Both the position numbers and the translations under genes were made by a program. Below the pieces are notes generated by a model that ran no database searches, was not told where the DNA came from, and saw nothing but the letters and a program-made list of their open reading frames with translations. Shown here piece by piece: positions 1 through 15,996 of a DNA stretch of 64,000 nt. Source of the DNA: Oscillospiraceae bacterium (GTDB lineage Bacteria > Bacillota > Clostridia > Oscillospirales > Oscillospiraceae); the NCBI GenBank assembly GCA_017535635.1, contig JAFXTU010000056.1, positions 1 through 64,000 of the forward strand, read 5' to 3'. How positions within the stretch are numbered: the stretch's first letter is position 1; each line of letters opens with the position of its first letter.

Positions 1-2834
1 ATGTTCACCCCTGGGCTCAGCTCGTCGCCCTGCTCCCGGGTGAAGACCTTCACGTCCACCACGATGCCGCTCTCGCCGTGGGGCACCTTCATGCTGGTGT
101 CCCGGACTTCCCTGGCCTTTTCGCCAAAGATGGCCCGGAGGAGCCGCTCCTCGGCGGTGAGATCCGTTTCGCCCTTGGGGGTGACCTTGCCCACCAGGAT
201 ATCGCCGGCGCGAACCTCCGCGCCCACGGTGATGATGCCCCGCTCGTCCAGGTATTTCAGGGCGTCCTCGCCCACGCCGGGGATGTCCCGGGTGATCTCC
301 TCGGGGCCCAGCTTGGTATCCCGGGAGTCGATCTCGTGCTCCTCGATGTGGATGGAGGTGAACACGTCGTCCTGCACCAGGCGCTCGTTGAGAAGGACGG
401 CGTCCTCATAGTTGTAGCCCTCCCAGGACATGAAGCCCACCAGGATGTTCTTGCCCAGGCTGATCTCACCCTGGCTGGTGGCGGGCCCGTCGGCAAGGAC
501 CGTGTCTGCCGTGACCCGCTCGCCCACGTTCACCACGGGCCGCTGGTTGGAGCAGGTGCCCTGGTTGGAGCGGGCGAATTTGCGAAGCTTGTAGGTCTTC
601 AGGTCCCCCGCGTCGTAGCGGACCCGGATCTCGTCGGCGCTCACGTAGGTGACGGTGCCGTTCCCCTCGGACATGACCACCACTCCGGAGTCCACGGCAC
701 ACTTGTGCTCGATGCCGGTGGCGACGATGGGGGCCTCGGTGACCATCAGGGGCACGGCCTGCCGCTGCATGTTGGCGCCCATCAGGGCGCGGTTGGCGTC
801 GTCGTTCTCCAGGAAGGGAATCATGGCGGAGGCCACGGAGACCATGATCCGGGGGCTGATGTCGATATAGTCCACCCGCTCCCGGTCCACCTCGATGATC
901 TCGTCCCGGTGGCGGCAGGTGATGCGCTTGTTCAGGAGGCAGCCGTTCTCGTCCAGGGGCTCGGTGGCCTGGGCGACGATGAACTCGTCCTCCACGTCGG
1001 CGGTCATGTACCGCACCTCGTCCGTCACCCGGCAGGTGCCCTTTTCCACCTTCCGGAAGGGGGCCACCAGGAAGCCGTACTCGTTCACTCTCGCGTAGGA
1101 GGCCAGGTAGGAGATGAGGCCGATGTTGGGACCTTCGGGGGTCTCAATGGGGCACATGCGGCCGTAGTGGCTGTAGTGCACGTCCCGGACGTCGAAGTTC
1201 GCCCGCTCCCGGCTCAGGCCGCCGGGGCCCAGGGCGGACATACGCCGCTTGTGGGTGAGCTCGGCCAGGGGGTTCGTCTGGTCCATGAACTGGCTCAGAG
1301 GGCTGGAGCCGAAGAATTCCTTGATGGCCGCGGTGACGGGCCGGATGTTGATCAGGGACTGGGGGGTCACGATGTCCAGGTCCTGGAGGGTCATCCGCTC
1401 CCGGATCACCCGCTCCATGCGGCTGAAGCCCACCCGGAACTGATTCTGCAGCAGCTCGCCCACGCTGCGCATCCGGCGGTTGCCCAGGTGGTCGATGTCG
1501 TCGATGTCCCCGATCCCGTGGGCCAGGCAGTTGAGGTAGTTCACCGAGGCCAGGATGTCGTCGGGGATGATGTGCTTCGGGCTCAGGTCGTCCGCCCGCT
1601 CCAGGAGGACGTTTTTCAGCTCTTCGCCCTCATAGGCGGTCAGGATCTCCTCCAGGAGAATCAGGCGCACGTGCTCCTTGAAGGCAGCCTTCAGCTCGTC
1701 GTCGCAGTCCACATAGTCCTCCAGGCGGACCATGCCGTTGGAGAAGACCTTGACCTCCTTGCCCGCGTGATCCCGGAGCCAGACCTCGTTCAGGCCGCTG
1801 CGCTCGATCTCCATGGCCTTCTCATAGCTGAGGGTCTCCCCCTCCTCGGCCAGCACCTCGCCGGTGCGGGGGCTGACGGCGGTCCGCGCCAGGACTCCGT
1901 TCTGGATGCGCTTGGCAAGGGCCATCTTCTTATTGAACTTATAGCGGCCCACGTTCCCCAGGTCGTAGCGCCGGGGATCGAAGAACAGGTTGTTCAGCAG
2001 CGTCTCGGCGGACTCCACGGTGGGGGGGTCCCCGGGGCGGAGACGGCGGTAGATCTCGATCAGGGCCTCGTCCCGGTTCTTGCAGGTATCCCGATCCAGG
2101 GTGGCGACGATGCGCTCGTCCTCGCCGAAGATCTCCTTCAGCTGCTCGGCGGTGGAGGCGCCGCCGGCGGCGTCCAGGATGGCGCTGCGGCTCCAAGGCC
2201 GGTCCTCCCAGGAGACGCCGATGGCCTTCAGCAGCCAGGTCACCGGGATCTTCCGGTTCTTGTCGATGCGGACGGAGAAAACGTCCTGGGTGTCCGTCTC
2301 ATACTCCAGCCAGGCCCCCCGGTAGGGGATGGAGGTGGCGCTGTAAACGGTGGTCAGGGTCTTGTCCGTCTTCTTGTCGTAGTACATGCCGGGGCTGCGG
2401 ATGATCTGGGAGACGATGACCCGCTCGGCCCCGTTGATGACGAAGGTGCCGCCGGGGGTCATGATGGGGAAATCCCCCATGTAGATTTCCTGCTCCTTGA
2501 TCTCCTCCGTCTTCTTGTTGCGGAGGCGGACCCGGACCTTCAGGGTCTGGGCATAGGTGGCGTCCCGGGCCTGGCACTCCTCGATGGAATACTTGGGGCT
2601 GTCGGTCATGGAGTAGTCGATGAAGGTGAGCTCCAGGTCGCCGGAATAGTCGGTGATGGCGGCCACGTCCCGGAAGGCCTCCCGGAGGCCCACGTCCAGG
2701 AACCACTGGTAGGACTTCTTCTGGATCTCCAGAAGATTGGGCATATCCTCGATCTCTTCCATCTTGGCGAAGCTCTTGCGCAGGGTCTTGCCGTACTGCA
2801 CGTCCTTGACCATGCTGTTTACGTCCACACTCAT
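1..2834 (-). CDS. rpoB: DNA-directed RNA polymerase subunit beta (partial, N-terminal ~944 residues)
   Basis: Beta subunit of RNA polymerase, forming much of the active-site cleft and the rifampicin pocket. Translation of the minus strand gives an unbroken frame from the ATG at 2834 to the window edge. It begins with a typical firmicute N-terminus ([20 protein letters not shown]) and includes the rifampicin region ([20 protein letters not shown], then [12 protein letters not shown]). The residues equivalent to E. coli D516, H526 and S531 are wild type, so no classic resistance change is seen. The frame leaves the window at [17 protein letters not shown], so roughly 250 residues are missing. 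An AGGAG lies 12 bases before the chosen ATG, a little far. Its own promoter lies directly upstream and no rplL precedes it, so rpoB is separated from the usual L10-L7/L12 genes. Confidence 0.98.
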
Positions 2835-3147
2835 CTGGCATTCACGCTCCTGTATTTTAGGATCCCGTGCGGGTGCGGGGATGATACGCACGGAGCAGTT
2901 GTTTGTTTGTTTCGGTCCCTCTTGACTTTTTCGGTCATTGTGGTAAGCTAAGCTTAGTTGGTGGAGCTTGTCTATTTCACCGATTGCGATAGAAAGCAAG
3001 AAATTATACCGAAGTTTTCCACTTTTGTCAAGGGTGTTTTTCGCATTTTGTGCCGCTGTTTTCCGCCGGTCCCCCCAGTGACCCGGAACGGCGGTTTTTT
3101 GGCGCTGTACGGGATTTTCCGGCAGCGCCGGAGGGAAAGGAACGGGC
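2835..3147. other. Intergenic region between divergent rpoB and the mannosyltransferase gene
   Basis: This 313-base gap holds the rpoB promoter and an rpoB leader of about 160 nt. The leader contains an open frame of 35 codons (2938 to 2831, minus) whose TGA overlaps the rpoB ATG, and a possible 7-bp stem (CCGTGCG/CGCACGG) around 2872-2900. A short perfect palindrome, ctaagcttag, sits at 2948-2957. No gene longer than the leader frame is convincing here. The plus-strand promoter for the mannosyltransferase is not clear. Confidence 0.6.
3003..3031 (-). promoter_or_regulatory. Consensus sigma-A promoter of rpoB
   Basis: On the minus strand TTGACA (3031-3026) and TATAAT (3008-3003) are separated by exactly 17 bases. 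Both hexamers are perfect consensus. Transcription should start near 2996, giving a leader of about 160 nt before rpoB. Confidence 0.9.
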
Positions 3148-4470
3148 ATGGTTTTGAACAAAGCGCTGCCGGGGCTGGGCATCGCCGCCTTCTTCGCCGC
3201 CGCAGCGGCGATCCTGTGTACGCTCCCCGGCGCGGCCCTCCCGGGCGTCCTGGGGATGGGGCTGGTGCTGAGCGCCGCCTTCTTCGGCGCTTTGGCGGTT
3301 CTGCGCCCGGAGCCGGGGAAGGCATTGTATTTCACCGCCGTACCGGCGGCGCTCCTCCTTCTGGCGAGGCTCTTTTTCTTCCCTGTGGAGACCTCGGACT
3401 TCAGGGATTTTCTCCTGCCCTGGACGGAGCGGCTGCGCGCCCTGGGAGGCTTCCGGGGCCTGGGACGGGAGATCGGGAACTACAACGTGCCTTATATGGT
3501 GCTTCTCGTCCTCTTTTCCTATCTTAAAACCCCGGCACTTTACCTGATCAAGCTCTCCAGCGTCCTCTTCGAGCTTTTGCAGGCCGTCGTCCTGGCCCTG
3601 CTGGTCCGGCGGCTGGGGGGCGGGAAGGGCCGGGTAAGCTTATGCTTTGTGCTGGCCTTGGCGCTGCCTACGGTGTTTCTGAACAGCGCGGTCTGGGGTC
3701 AGTGCGACAGTGTCTACGTCTCTCTGGCCCTCCTGGGCTTTTATCTCTGCCTGGCAGAGAGGCCCGGCTGGGGGATGGCGGCCCTGGGGCTCTCCTTCGC
3801 CTTTAAGCTCCAGGCGGTGTTTCTGCTGCCGGCGGTGCTGCTCCTGCTCTTCGCGGGGAAGGTGAAGTGGTTCCACCTCCCTCTCTTTCCCGCGGCCTAC
3901 GCCCTGGCGGTGTCCCCCGCCCTGATCGCGGGCCGGAGCGCGGGGGACACCTTTCTCTTCTACCTTCGCACCGCTTCCACGGCGGGGAGCGCCCTGAATT
4001 ACAACTCCCCTTCCCTCTTCTCCCTCTATCGCTTCTACTGGATGGACGAGGCGGCAAAGGAAGCGGCGGCTCGGATGGGCATCCTCGCCGCCTTCGGCCT
4101 CTGTCTGCTGGTTTTCGTCCTCTTTTTCCTTCGGAGGAAAGCGATCACGCTTCGGAGCCTGCTCTTTGCCGTGGTGCTCTTCACCCTGGGGATCCCCCTG
4201 CTGCTCCCCCACATGCACGATCGCTACTTCTATTTCTGCGACGTGCTGACTCTCTGCGCGGCCTGCCTGGTCCCCTGTTTCAGTCCGGCGGTGCTGCTGA
4301 GTCAGTTCGCTTCCCTCCTGGGATATCACGCCTACTTCTATCTGCGCTACCTCCTGCCCATGCGCCTGGGCTTTCTGGCCCTCTGCGCTGTGTTCCTGGC
4401 GGCGATGTTCCTGTGCGCGAGGGAGCTGATTCATCCGCCTGCGGATGAATCCGTGAGGAGCGAGGAATGA
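3148..4470 (+). CDS. Polytopic membrane protein related to Gpi18-type mannosyltransferases (GT-C fold)
   Basis: A 440-residue protein of alternating hydrophobic helices, about ten to twelve membrane segments. Two signatures fit the COG5542/Gpi18-like GT-C family: [17 protein letters not shown] in the middle and [14 protein letters not shown] near the C-terminus. Such enzymes transfer a sugar from a lipid-phosphate carrier on the outer membrane face; the acceptor here is unknown. A GGAGGGAAAGGA ribosome site sits just before the ATG. It is transcribed away from rpoB and stands alone, so the neighbourhood does not reveal the glycan it serves. Confidence 0.85.
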
Positions 4471-4573: not shown

Positions 4574-4667
4574 TTTTTAATTGCTCCAAGTAGAAAGATA
4601 TGCTAGTATGTTATTGAAGAAACGTCTGAACGGCGGCCCTTTGGCCGCTTCGAGGGAGGAAAAAGCA

Positions 4668-6602
4668 ATGATTCAGGTCCGGGATCAGAAGATCGACGAA
4701 GCCGTTTTTATGAAGCTCCATGAAAAGGAGATCGCCGCCTGGCCCACCGGGAAGGATATCGACCTGGAGGAGGCGGTGGAGTACCAGAAGTCCCTGCCGG
4801 AGGACAAGAGCTTCTGGCGGCGGCTGGCAAAGTACAAGGCCGAGGGAAAGACCGGCCTCTATCCCCGCTCCGGCGTCCCCGTGGTGGAGAAGGAAATTGA
4901 ACTGCTGCAGGGCCTCAACAGCGTGGGGGTGGAGCTCTTCCCCTTCACCACGGACTCCTACACCCGCAACCGGCAGTTCGAGAAAGCCCAGTTCGGCCTG
5001 GAGGAGAGCATCCGCACCGGCCAGAACAAGCTCAACGGCTACCCCATCATCAACCACGGGGTAAAGACCAACCGGCGGGTGGTGGAGTCCTGCCGGGGGG
5101 CCTTCGACCCCCGGAGCAGCTACGGGGCCAACAGCTTCGTGGCGGAGATGGCCTTCGCCTCGGGCATGACCAGCATGCCCAACAGCTTCTTCGGCTGGAT
5201 CGCGGGCTACGACAAGAACGTGACCCCGGAGGCCTGTATCGAGACGGCCCAGTACCTGGGACGGCTCCTGGGCTGGTACGCCGATAGGGGCGTGATCCTC
5301 TCCTCGGCCTGCCACGGCTGGCTCCCCAACGGGGTGGTGCCCATGTATATGAACATGGCCACCCAGATCATCGAGAGCCTGGTGACCACCGGCCAGGGGG
5401 GCCGGGCCATCATCCCCCTCACCAACATGCAGGGGAATTTCTCCCAGGACCTGAGCGACATCCGGGCCAGCGAGATCCTCTTCCCCAAGTACTTTGAAAA
5501 GCTGGGGCGGAAGGACGCCTTCATCCCCGGCATCATCGGCAACCAGTCCTCCCTCTTCCCCTTCCCCCAGGACGTGGGCATGGCCTACGGCTACATCAAC
5601 TACACCGCCATGCTGGCCGCCGTGGCGGGCCTCCCTGCCTGCTCGGTGAAGACGGTGGACGAAGCCTCCGGCGTCCCCTCCATCCAGAGCCACATGGAGA
5701 CCTACCGCAGCGCCAACTGGCTCTTCAACGTGATGCGGGCCCAGAAGTGGGAGGTGAACGAGGCGGAGGTGCAGCTGGAGACGGAGATGACGGTGAAGGC
5801 CGTCAGCGCCATCGTGGACAAGGTCCTGGAGCTGGGGGACGGGGACATCTGCGTGGGCACGGTGAAGGCCATCGAAGTGGGCGTGCTGGACTCTCCCTTC
5901 TCCATCAACAGCCATCCAAGGGACCTGTGCCTGGGGGTGCGGGACCTGCAGGGGGCCTGCCGCTACCTGGACTTCGGGAACATCCCCGTGCCGGAGGACG
6001 TGAAGGAGTACCACCGGGAAAAGCTCCGCGAGCGGGAAAAAGCGGAGGGCACGAAGCTGGGCTTCAGCACCTCCATCGCCGACTTCTGGTGCCTCAGCCG
6101 GGGACAGATCACCGGCAAGCCGGAGGTGAGCCCCTATGAGGCGGAGGCACAGAGCTTCATTCCCGAGATCAAAGCCAAGCAGCCCACGGTCATCACCGGC
6201 ACCGTGGGGGTGGACAGCCACGTGATCGGCACCAAGATCGTCTCCCGGGTCCTCAGCCAGTACGGCTTCAAGGTGGTGGCCCTGGGGGCCCAGACCAGCC
6301 CGGAGGACTTCATCAAGGCCGCCCAGGAGACCGACGCCTGCGCCATGCTCATCTCCTCCCTCTACGGCATGGCGGAGATGGACTGCCAGGGCTTCCGGCA
6401 GAAGTGCATCGAGGCGGGGGTAGGGGACATTCTCCTCTACATCGGCGGCATCCTGGGCGTGGGCGTCCGGGACTTCGCGGAGGACGAGCGGAAATTCAAG
6501 GAACCGGGGATCGGCTTCGACCGGGTCTATCCCCCGGAGACCGACGTGGAGCGGGATATCGTGGACCTGTGCAAGGACCTGAAAGCAAAGGGGCTGCTGT
6601 AA
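4668..6602 (+). CDS. Adenosylcobalamin-dependent carbon-skeleton mutase, glutamate-mutase type, E and S subunits fused
   Basis: A 644-residue single chain. Residues 1-486 match the epsilon (catalytic TIM-barrel) subunit of glutamate mutase. Residues about 505-644 match the small B12-binding subunit, with base-off motif D516-S-H518-x-x-G521, SSLYG and GG at 593-594. Compared from memory with Clostridium cochlearium GlmE, the carboxylate-binding arginines are kept (R67, R100, R149), as are Y181 and the adenosine-contacting K328/E332. Glu171, which binds the substrate amino group, is Pro171, and Tyr177 is Trp177. Substrate may therefore be a non-amino dicarboxylate such as 2-methyleneglutarate; this is inference. 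The start is the ATG with GGGAGG eight bases upstream. Its mutL follows immediately, and no methylaspartase or nicotinate genes are adjacent. Confidence 0.9.
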   Translation: MIQVRDQKIDEAVFMKLHEKEIAAWPTGKDIDLEEAVEYQKSLPEDKSFWRRLAKYKAEGKTGLYPRSGVPVVEKEIELLQGLNSVGVELFPFTTDSYTRNRQFEKAQFGLEESIRTGQNKLNGYPIINHGVKTNRRVVESCRGAFDPRSSYGANSFVAEMAFASGMTSMPNSFFGWIAGYDKNVTPEACIETAQYLGRLLGWYADRGVILSSACHGWLPNGVVPMYMNMATQIIESLVTTGQGGRAIIPLTNMQGNFSQDLSDIRASEILFPKYFEKLGRKDAFIPGIIGNQSSLFPFPQDVGMAYGYINYTAMLAAVAGLPACSVKTVDEASGVPSIQSHMETYRSANWLFNVMRAQKWEVNEAEVQLETEMTVKAVSAIVDKVLELGDGDICVGTVKAIEVGVLDSPFSINSHPRDLCLGVRDLQGACRYLDFGNIPVPEDVKEYHREKLREREKAEGTKLGFSTSIADFWCLSRGQITGKPEVSPYEAEAQSFIPEIKAKQPTVITGTVGVDSHVIGTKIVSRVLSQYGFKVVALGAQTSPEDFIKAAQETDACAMLISSLYGMAEMDCQGFRQKCIEAGVGDILLYIGGILGVGVRDFAEDERKFKEPGIGFDRVYPPETDVERDIVDLCKDLKAKGLL

Positions 6603-6603
6603 A

Positions 6604-7983
6604 TTGTCCGAAAAGCGGGTCTTTATCGACTTCGGCAGCACCTTCACCAAGGTGGTGGCCTTCGATCTGGACAGCGAAACGCTCTTGGGCCGGGTCCAGG
6701 CCCCCAGTACGGTGGATACCGACGTGAACCTGGGCCTGGACCGGGCGCTGAGAGCCCTCCGGGAGACGGTGGCGGTGGACGAGGGGGACATCCGGAACGC
6801 TCTCGCCTGCTCCAGCGCCGCCGGGGGGCTGCGGATGGCCTGCATCGGCCTGGTCCCGGAGTACACCACCGAGGCTGGCCGGCTGGCCGCCCTGGGGGCC
6901 GGGGCCAAGGTGGTGGGGTCCTTTTCCTACGAGATGACGAAGGGAGAGCTCCGGGAGCTGGAAGCCCTCACGCCCGACATCGTCCTCCTCACCGGGGGCA
7001 CCGACGGGGGCAACAGGCGCACCATCCTCCACAACGGGGAGGTATTGGCCTCCTCCCAGGTCATCCGCAACATCATCGTGGCGGGCAACAAGTCCGCCGG
7101 GGACGAGCTGCGGGACATCTTTGCTCTCAGCGGGCAGAACGTGGTCTTCACCACCAACGTTATGCCGGAATTCGGGCGGCTGGACATCGAGCCGGTGAAC
7201 CGAGTGATCCGGGAGATGTTCATCGGGCGGATCACCGAGGCCAAGGGCGTGGACAGGGCCCGGGAGCGCATCGGGGACGTGGTGATGCCCACCCCCTCGG
7301 CGGTGCTGGGGGCGGCAAAGGTGCTGGCCGACGGAACCTATGAGGAGGCGGGCCTGGGTCCGCTGATGGTGATCGACGTGGGCGGGGCCACTACGGACGT
7401 GTACTCCGTGGCCGAGGGGGTCCCCCGGAAGGCCGGGGTGGGCTACGCGGGCCTTCCCGAGCCCTACGCCAAGCGCAGCGTGGAGGGGGATTTGGGTCTC
7501 TTCCACAATCTGGACACCCTGGTGGAGCTGGCGGCGCAGGAGCACCTGGACTTTCAGGAGGGGGAGGACCGGGAGACGGTGCTCCGGGGCCTCCGGGAGG
7601 TGCTGGGCGTCCCCAGCGGAGACCGGCAGACCCAGGACCAACTGCTCCTCAGCCGCCTGGCGGTGCGCACGGCGGTGGACCGGCACGTGGGACGGCTGGA
7701 AATGCGCCTCACCATGAACGGGGAGACCTGGATCCAGCGGGGCAAGGACCTGACGGAGCTGCGCACCGTGCTGGGCGCGGGAGGGCCGCTGGCCTTTTCC
7801 GCGGACCCGCTCTTCGTGCTCCGGGGGGCTGCCGGCGCGGAGGACCCCAGCATCCTCAAGCCCAGGGAGCCAAAATTCCTGCTGGACGGGCGCTATATCC
7901 TCTTCGCCGTGGGGCTCCTGAGCCTCACCGAGCCGGAAAAGGCCCTGCGGATTTTTAAAAAGTATGTACGGAGGCTGGGGTAA
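6604..7983 (+). CDS. MutL/GlmL-family reactivating ATPase for the B12 mutase
   Basis: A 459-residue actin-fold (ASKHA) ATPase of the GlmL/MutL family. These are encoded beside glutamate mutase and are thought to exchange damaged cobalamin for adenosylcobalamin. Phosphate-1 motif is DFGSTFTKV at residues 9-17 and the phosphate-2 motif is VIDVGGATTDVYS. The start is TTG, one base after the mutase stop, with an AAAGGGG ribosome site inside the end of the mutase gene, so the two are translationally coupled. It has no similarity to the DNA-repair MutL. Tight pairing of chaperone and mutase supports the fused enzyme being functional. Confidence 0.9.
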   Translation: MSEKRVFIDFGSTFTKVVAFDLDSETLLGRVQAPSTVDTDVNLGLDRALRALRETVAVDEGDIRNALACSSAAGGLRMACIGLVPEYTTEAGRLAALGAGAKVVGSFSYEMTKGELRELEALTPDIVLLTGGTDGGNRRTILHNGEVLASSQVIRNIIVAGNKSAGDELRDIFALSGQNVVFTTNVMPEFGRLDIEPVNRVIREMFIGRITEAKGVDRARERIGDVVMPTPSAVLGAAKVLADGTYEEAGLGPLMVIDVGGATTDVYSVAEGVPRKAGVGYAGLPEPYAKRSVEGDLGLFHNLDTLVELAAQEHLDFQEGEDRETVLRGLREVLGVPSGDRQTQDQLLLSRLAVRTAVDRHVGRLEMRLTMNGETWIQRGKDLTELRTVLGAGGPLAFSADPLFVLRGAAGAEDPSILKPREPKFLLDGRYILFAVGLLSLTEPEKALRIFKKYVRRLG

Positions 7984-15175: not shown

Positions 15176-15230
15176 GGTTTATTCGGATAAACTTCAATGA
15201 TAGTTTATCTGAATAAACCGATTCTGTCAA
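15176..15230 (-). promoter_or_regulatory. blaI-blaR1 promoter with large operator dyad
   Basis: The minus-strand promoter is TTGACA (15230-15225), 17-base spacer, TAAACT (15207-15202). A dyad ggtttattcggataaac (15176-15192) and gtttatctgaataaacc (15203-15219), one mismatch in 17 positions and a 10-base centre, covers the -10 and the start site. This placement suits repression by BlaI. Confidence 0.8.
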
Positions 15231-15283
15231 GGGGTTCTGATGAAAAAACACTCTGCCATATCCAGGAATCTCGGCCAGGATCG

Positions 15284-15312
15284 TTGACATTACGGACACG
15301 ATCGTGTACCAT
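15284..15312 (+). promoter_or_regulatory. Toxin-antitoxin promoter with internal palindrome
   Basis: TTGACA (15284-15289), 17 bases, then TACCAT (15307-15312). A perfect 12-bp palindrome, acacgatcgtgt (15296-15307), fills the space between the two boxes, a good place for autorepression by the Phd/YefM-type antitoxin. Confidence 0.7.
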
Positions 15313-15331
15313 ATATTCAGGAGGTGGTATT

Positions 15332-15607
15332 ATGAATTTCTACTCCATCCGGGACCTGCGCACGGACTCCAAAAGTATGTGGCAGGACCTGAGCAGCGGA
15401 GACGAGGTCGTTCTTACCAACAACGGAAAGCCCTCCGCCCTGATCATCGGCATTCCCGAGGGCAGCTTTGACGAGGTGGTTCAGGCCGTCCGGCAAGCCA
15501 AGGCCATGATCGCCCTGAACAACATGCGACGGCGAGCGGCCATGGCCGGTTTTCACACCGAGGAAGAAATCGAAGCCCTGATCGACGAGGCCAGAGGCGC
15601 AACATGA
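15332..15607 (+). CDS. Phd/YefM-family antitoxin
   Basis: A 91-residue antitoxin. The N-terminus MNFYSIRDLRTDSKSMW and the strand VVLTNNGKPSALIIGIP are typical of the prevent-host-death/YefM fold, which binds the operator and, through its C-terminal helix, the toxin. The chosen ATG has a strong AGGAGG site; the longer upstream frame runs through the promoter. It overlaps the PIN toxin by four bases (ATGA), so the pair is translationally coupled. Confidence 0.85.
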   Translation: MNFYSIRDLRTDSKSMWQDLSSGDEVVLTNNGKPSALIIGIPEGSFDEVVQAVRQAKAMIALNNMRRRAAMAGFHTEEEIEALIDEARGAT

Positions 15608-15996
15608 ACATCGTGCTGGACACCAATGTCCTGGTTTCCGCCGTCTGGTCTCCCGGCAGAAACGCGTACAATATTCTGAGTGCCGCTTTTGCCCGGCGGT
15701 TCACTCTCTGCTATGACCACCGCATCCTGGAGGAATACGAGCGGGTCCTCCGTTATCCGAAGCTGGGATTCACGGCGCAGGAAGTGAACGCCGTTCTGGA
15801 CCCGCTCCTGAAAAACGGTCTCTCCGTGGTGGCGGACCCCATTCCGGAGGTCCCCTTTGAAAGGGACGAGACGGACCGGAAGTTTTATGAGGTCGCAAAG
15901 TTTTGCTGCGCGGTCCTGATCTCCGGCAACCTGGCGCATTATCCTCCCGACCCGGAGATCCTTTCCCCGGCGGACTTCTGCCGCCGTTATCTGTGA
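15604..15996 (+). CDS. PIN-domain toxin (ribonuclease)
   Basis: A 130-residue PIN-domain protein of the TIGR00305-like toxin group. The first acidic residue is in MNIVLDTNVLVSAVW (Asp6), followed by ILEEYERVL and a C-terminal SGNLAHYP segment. In this group the last conserved Asp usually sits in a SGDxH motif; here it reads SGNLAH, so one acidic metal ligand is replaced by Asn and activity may be reduced. It is coupled to the preceding antitoxin and followed by a strong terminator. Confidence 0.85.
   Translation: MNIVLDTNVLVSAVWSPGRNAYNILSAAFARRFTLCYDHRILEEYERVLRYPKLGFTAQEVNAVLDPLLKNGLSVVADPIPEVPFERDETDRKFYEVAKFCCAVLISGNLAHYPPDPEILSPADFCRRYL

Follow-up and report, generated by a model that had tools for sequence, protein, structure and literature searches.

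The stretch of DNA analyzed here, called the window, comprises 64,000 nucleotides from an Oscillospiraceae bacterium (assembly GCA_017535635.1, contig JAFXTU010000056.1, positions 1 to 64,000), and our subject is a pair of plus-strand genes that encode a predicted B12-dependent mutase and its accessory protein. The first open reading frame (4668–6602) has an ATG start, preceded by about 10 bases by a probable ribosome-binding site (GGGAGG, 4654–4659) read directly from the sequence. Its 644-residue product is assigned by Pfam matches, GlmE fold and clade membership to the fused adenosylcobalamin (AdoCbl)-dependent carbon-skeleton mutases of the glutamate mutase family. Residues 1–486 (4668–6125) form an E-type catalytic domain, delimited by phmmer and by structural alignment to GlmE, and residues 504–640 (6177–6587) form an S-type B12-binding domain in which pattern matching located the DxHxxG cobalamin motif as DSHVIG (residues 516–521, 6213–6230). 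An earlier reading made from the sequence alone (the sequence-only reading) had proposed that the E and S halves are joined in one chain; the Pfam matches to Met_asp_mut_E (PF06368, 427 bits) and to the B12-binding domain (44 bits) do fall on a single protein. The S domain scores above the cut-offs of the NCBIfam methylaspartate mutase S models and matches GlmS (1i9c_A) with 47% identity, an rmsd of 1.4 Å and a Z score of 22.2. The mutase is approximately 35% identical to GlmE, and its AlphaFold model superimposes on GlmE (6h9e_B) with a Z score of 51.0 and an rmsd of 1.9 Å over 480 aligned residues. Against the NCBIfam equivalog for the E subunit (TIGR01503) it reaches 337.4 bits, which is below the cut-off of 390.1. 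The second open reading frame (6604–7983) begins two bases past the mutase stop with a TTG codon and encodes a MutL/GlmL-type accessory protein of 459 residues, which matches Pfam MutL and scores 519 bits with NCBIfam GlmL (cut-off 475). The mutase is thus accompanied by its own MutL directly downstream, as had been claimed. The genome to which the window belongs contains a single E-domain match.

We compared the substrate pocket with that of Clostridium cochlearium GlmE, using the sequence from the PDB as reference. In GlmE, we take Glu171 and Tyr177 to contact the amino group of the substrate, the three arginines to bind its carboxylates, and the Lys/Glu pair to form the adenosine site. The alignment places R67, R100, R149, Y181, K328 and E332 of the window protein opposite GlmE R66, R100, R149, Y181, K326 and E330. 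This is the correspondence that the sequence-only reading had drawn, with its arginines numbered as in the window protein. The two substitutions on which that reading had built, proline for Glu171 and tryptophan for Tyr177, are also present: the stretch from R149 to N184 aligns without gaps, and codons 171–177 (5178–5198) encode PNSFFGW where GlmE has EGGGISY. Additional pocket residues differ between GlmE and the mutase, with His150 replaced by Ser, Phe216 by His, Gly173 by Ser and Ile175 by Phe. GlmE His291 and Met294 differ as well, but the surrounding alignment contains a gap. The aligned residues are those expected if the enzyme had kept its hold on the carboxylates and its apparatus for radical chemistry while changing what is held between them.

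A genome scan recovered 34 relatives of the mutase with 55–93% identity. By the taxon names in the records, which are mostly metagenome assemblies, they come from Oscillospiraceae, other Clostridia, Deltaproteobacteria, Spirochaetes, Bacteroidetes, Acidobacteria and Actinobacteria. The tree joins all 34 with the mutase in a single monophyletic group (100% bootstrap), which has a long branch and is separate from canonical GlmE. Pro171 and Trp177 are present in all clade members whose sequence extends over the region, and Glu171 is found in 23 of 23 canonical sequences. Of the two placements that had been set against each other, with a 171-Glu or with a 171-Pro clade, the tree returns the latter with full support. 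The search peptide used in the scan, MPNSFFGW, covers the conserved segment 170–177 and with it position 171, so the invariance of this region among scan-retrieved loci is partly circular, and we gave it no weight of proof on its own. However, a mutase from genome G417, which is 59% identical and was found in a whole-genome search that used no pattern, reads IPQSMFGW, with Pro171 and Trp177 kept and different neighbors. Both residues therefore hold independently of the search peptide. Within the E domain, the 171-Pro clade and the canonical group are fixed for different residues at 37 positions, six of them at 171–177, and 75 positions are invariant in both groups, including R66, R100, R149, K326 and E330. 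Two actinobacterial members (L031 and L032) encode E and S as separate genes, showing that the fusion is not universal in the clade, whereas the rebuilt pocket is.

Methylaspartate ammonia-lyase was found neither in the 64 kb window nor beside any locus of the 171-Pro clade. The gene adjoins most of the canonical glutamate mutase loci that we examined, where it is usual, though not obligatory. Because the amino-holding residues have become Pro and Trp and methylaspartase is missing from the loci, glutamate is most likely not the substrate, and the residues make it very probable that the migrating fragment carries no free amino group. The sequence-only reading therefore stands in its view that the enzyme differs from ordinary glutamate mutases: residues that contact the amino group are lost throughout the clade, the E domain falls below the equivalog cut-off, and methylaspartase does not accompany it. 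Its statement that fermentation genes are not adjacent holds for methylaspartase; as for nicotinate, gene maps of the window and its relatives show other recurrent neighbors, though no search aimed at each nicotinate gene was made. Its overall interpretation is partly upheld, and it had missed the strongest functional clue, a partner glycyl-radical enzyme (GRE).

Gene maps of the relatives repeatedly showed a GRE of about 840 residues, together with its activase, directly before the mutase and MutL genes. The activase is present at 17 of the 34 related loci and the GRE at 15, with several loci ending at contig ends. In the genome of the window, an iron alcohol dehydrogenase, a GRE and an activase lie in a row on contig C34, away from the mutase contig, and this GRE is 76% identical to that of the linked operons. 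The partner was therefore invisible from the window alone. We then asked how closely the two enzymes follow each other between genomes. In the family sample, the 171-Pro mutase occurs in 5 of 81 genomes (four genera), and a GRE with at least 75% identity occurs in the same five and is absent from the remaining 76; such a match would have a probability of 3.9e-8 (1 in 25.6 million) under independence of the genomes, an assumption that does not hold. Two genomes of this sample (G400 and G402) carry a canonical split mutase and have no partner-type GRE. In each of the 17 genomes that we reached by way of related loci, Actinobacteria included, both GRE and mutase are present, linked or unlinked, with 62–85% GRE identity. 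In the order sample, the mutase was found in 2 of 394 genomes and the GRE in the same two, and 12 genomes with a canonical split mutase have no such GRE, although the order-level search scored two candidates per genome and its negatives are weaker than those at the family level. A pair that persists despite lost linkage is hard to account for without shared function, and we consider it highly probable from this association that GRE and mutase belong to one pathway. Genome G432 encodes two GREs with the GCL(A/G)YH motif, 46–48% identical to the partner (L129, 8663–11188; L130, 3798–6362), and has no mutase; the GRE subfamily is therefore wider than the mutase pairing.

The partner GRE contains the glycyl-radical loop RVGGYSAYF and one active-site cysteine in the motif GCLGYH, which is invariant in 13 aligned sequences. 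It thus has C-x-G at the position where dehydratases and decarboxylases (HypD and others) have the catalytic Cys-x-Glu. The enzyme falls below every NCBIfam equivalog cut-off, and dehydratases ranked first when its structural model was searched against the PDB. The quality of this model is modest (pLDDT 68), and we used it for the fold and not for the active site. From its sequence features, the partner GRE looks like an uncharacterised subfamily. The genome of the window encodes about nine GREs. One of 817 residues lies just beyond the right end of the window on the minus strand (contig C24, 64.5–72.4 kb; L085), together with an old yellow enzyme (OYE)-type reductase and an activase. A third type of GRE, with GCVYP at the active-site cysteine, is found in genome G476 (L144, 3570–6011) and adjoins the iron alcohol dehydrogenase, two aldehyde dehydrogenases, a short-chain dehydrogenase/reductase (SDR) and two OYE-type reductases.

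Additional enzymes accompany the pair in part of its range. Of 19 mutase genomes tested, 13 have an ortholog of the iron alcohol dehydrogenase, including all five from the family sample, and none of 13 mutase-free genomes does. This gene repeatedly adjoins two aldehyde dehydrogenases. A PrpD/MmgE-type enzyme occurs at high identity in 8 of the 19 and again in none of the 13; it repeatedly neighbors a zinc alcohol dehydrogenase, an aldehyde dehydrogenase and a metallo-beta-lactamase-fold protein. SDR, OYE and aldehyde ferredoxin oxidoreductase (AOR) genes recur at some related loci. We rejected AOR as a core member because close orthologs occur in some genomes only, and PrpD because of its partial presence. 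The recurrence of dehydrogenases and reductases near the pair suggests that pathway intermediates carry alcohol or aldehyde groups. The linked operon is also present in a cultured bacterium, Sporobacter termitidis DSM 10068 (L014). It is reported to use methoxylated aromatics as its sole growth substrates, which it O-demethylates and whose ring it cleaves (PMC4585845). Its growth on aromatics, taken with the linked operon, makes a role with a ring-derived dicarboxylate a lead rather than a result.

Based on these observations, we propose that the window encodes a free-acid mutase that probably acts on a dicarboxylate without a free amino group. Together with the GRE, it would serve an undescribed anaerobic route of catabolism that uses two radical enzymes, and it would catalyze a single step of that route. 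By homology, homolysis of AdoCbl would generate a 5'-deoxyadenosyl radical that abstracts hydrogen from the substrate. Fragmentation and recombination, or a shift, would then interconvert a linear, glutarate-type dicarboxylate and a methyl-branched isomer, with the three arginines presumably holding both carboxylates. The predicted pathway set consists of the mutase, its own MutL, the GRE with the GCLGYH motif, the GRE activase and, usually, the iron alcohol dehydrogenase; aldehyde dehydrogenases, SDR, and a PrpD-like enzyme or OYE would be frequent additions. We also lean, with less assurance, toward a broader proposal, in which a new GRE subfamily without Cys-x-Glu, whose reaction is probably new as well, and a new free-acid B12 mutase form an obligatory pair in at least six phyla, acting on a non-amino and perhaps ring-derived dicarboxylate.

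Several points weigh against this proposal. The altered site could still accept glutamate slowly. In the AlphaFold model of the mutase, the loops at approximately 92–101, 149–153 and 178–180 have low confidence, and for this reason we did not read pocket geometry or volume from it. Neither the iron alcohol dehydrogenase nor PrpD is universal among mutase genomes. Common descent links the genomes, and the scan that yielded the 17 loci was keyed to the query, so that co-occurrence counts lack independence; a few of these 17 genomes also belong to the family sample. Finally, the membership of the GRE in the pathway is deduced from association.

We considered four other explanations. In the first, the enzyme would be a mutase of the 2-hydroxyglutarate/3-methylmalate type, or its substrate would be some other small dicarboxylate with a hydroxy or oxo group. 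The nearby dehydrogenases for alcohols and aldehydes would suit hydroxylated or carbonyl intermediates, and the carboxylate-binding arginines are kept. However, Pro171 and Trp177 lower the polarity of the pocket, contrary to what a small hydroxyl group needs, and a variant in genome G022 that lies near fumarase-like and malate-dehydrogenase-like genes is better suited to the role; we therefore regard this explanation as unlikely. The G022 variant is a split mutase E subunit (contig C55, 8620–10068; L082) that also lacks Glu171 (segment FIHGPICP); Gln occupies the position of GlmE residue 330. Its neighbors are two fumarase-like gene pairs, a malate/lactate-dehydrogenase-type gene and a TctA-like transporter gene, and it is perhaps a hydroxy-dicarboxylate mutase.

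The second explanation is that the enzyme is a 2-methyleneglutarate mutase, which interconverts 2-methyleneglutarate and 3-methylitaconate as in nicotinate fermentation, such that the migrating acrylate would fill the more hydrophobic pocket. The hydrophobic replacements at 171, 174, 175 and 177 fit such a substrate, and the Eubacterium barkeri enzyme is reported to be a fused single chain. On the other hand, our PDB search returned no such enzyme, no residue specifically links the window protein with it, and the nicotinate route is not known to need a GRE. The recurrent neighbors of the clade are GRE, iron alcohol dehydrogenase, aldehyde dehydrogenase, AOR and PrpD, with no obvious nicotinate set, though no search dedicated to nicotinate genes was made. 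We think it quite doubtful that the enzyme is this mutase, and 2-methyleneglutarate as a substrate is neither supported nor excluded.

In the third explanation, the GRE would be a fumarate-adding enzyme of the X-succinate synthase type, and the mutase would rearrange the substituted succinate that results. The analogy is with the anaerobic degradation of alkanes, in which pairing of a GRE with a B12 mutase is established. BssA and MasD also lack Cys-x-Glu, as the partner GRE does, but they read CMSP, whereas the cysteine of the partner is followed by LGYH. Moreover, the partner scores higher with dehydratases (406–375 bits) than with benzylsuccinate synthase and MasD (291–271 bits), and it has no arginine at the spacing of BssA Arg508, 15 residues past the cysteine, where the reference sequence has histidine. 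The benzylsuccinate synthase fragment used here was checked against the PDB, where it is near-identical to 4pkc. Alkane degraders also use CoA esters and a methylmalonyl-CoA-type mutase, and we judge fumarate addition to be improbable. We also examined a GRE system for limonene, which contains a true fumarate-adding enzyme with a downstream methylmalonyl-CoA mutase, and set it aside as distinct from the GRE–mutase pair. Finally, the approximately 35% identity, the GlmE fold and the retained Y181 would be compatible with a glutamate mutase in which other residues bind the amino group and whose link to the GRE is incidental, but this is highly improbable given the score below the curated cut-off, the lack of methylaspartase at any locus, the many pocket residues that are changed and fixed in the clade, and the perfect co-occurrence with the GRE in the unbiased family sample.

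The surroundings of the mutase and MutL genes were also surveyed. Upstream, rumen relatives share a conserved membrane protein gene (3148–4470) and a very long minus-strand gene resembling RNA polymerase beta, and this arrangement (window positions 1–4470) is conserved in L002, L029 and L030. Two neighboring small genes at 15197–15996 resemble, by eye, an antitoxin and a PIN-domain toxin. An Rfam search of the window returned no riboswitch or other RNA, and a tRNA search of the window found none.

We found no description of this GRE–mutase pair in the open-licence papers searched. To our knowledge, few B12 carbon-skeleton mutases act on free acids, namely glutamate mutase and 2-methyleneglutarate mutase. 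If the proposal that the mutase and GRE share a non-amino dicarboxylate pathway is correct, the mutase would be the third such enzyme, both radical-enzyme families would gain a new reaction, and a fermentation route common to rumen, termite-gut and sediment bacteria would come into view. As S. termitidis DSM 10068 is a cultured carrier, the substrate question is directly testable.

Among known systems, glutamate mutase of C. cochlearium (GlmES/MutES, EC 5.4.99.1; PDB 6h9e, 1cb7 and 1i9c) shares with the mutase its fold, B12 domain, DxHxxG motif and dedicated MutL/GlmL protein. The mutase differs from it in the fusion of E and S in most clade members, in the substitutions E171P, Y177W, H150S and F216H, in its score below the equivalog cut-off, in having no adjacent methylaspartase, and in the presence of the GRE in every genome tested. 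The 2-methyleneglutarate mutase of E. barkeri is likewise reported to be a fused chain, with a non-amino free dicarboxylate as its substrate; its nicotinate pathway is not known to include a GRE. The partner GRE has in common with the PFL2/glycerol-dehydratase family (HypD, CutC, HpsG, IslA and diol dehydratases) the overall fold, the glycyl-radical loop and a cognate radical-SAM activase. It is approximately 28–30% identical to these enzymes by structural alignment, has C-x-G in place of C-x-E, and carries an invariant ESS(D/E)RPEV where they have the usual substrate loop. In anaerobic alkane degradation, alkylsuccinate synthase (a GRE) and then a B12 carbon-skeleton mutase act in one pathway. 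Alkylsuccinate synthase carries X-succinate synthase signatures that are missing from the partner GRE, and the mutase of alkane degradation belongs to the CoA-ester (methylmalonyl-CoA-type) family, whereas the mutase described here belongs to the free-acid family.

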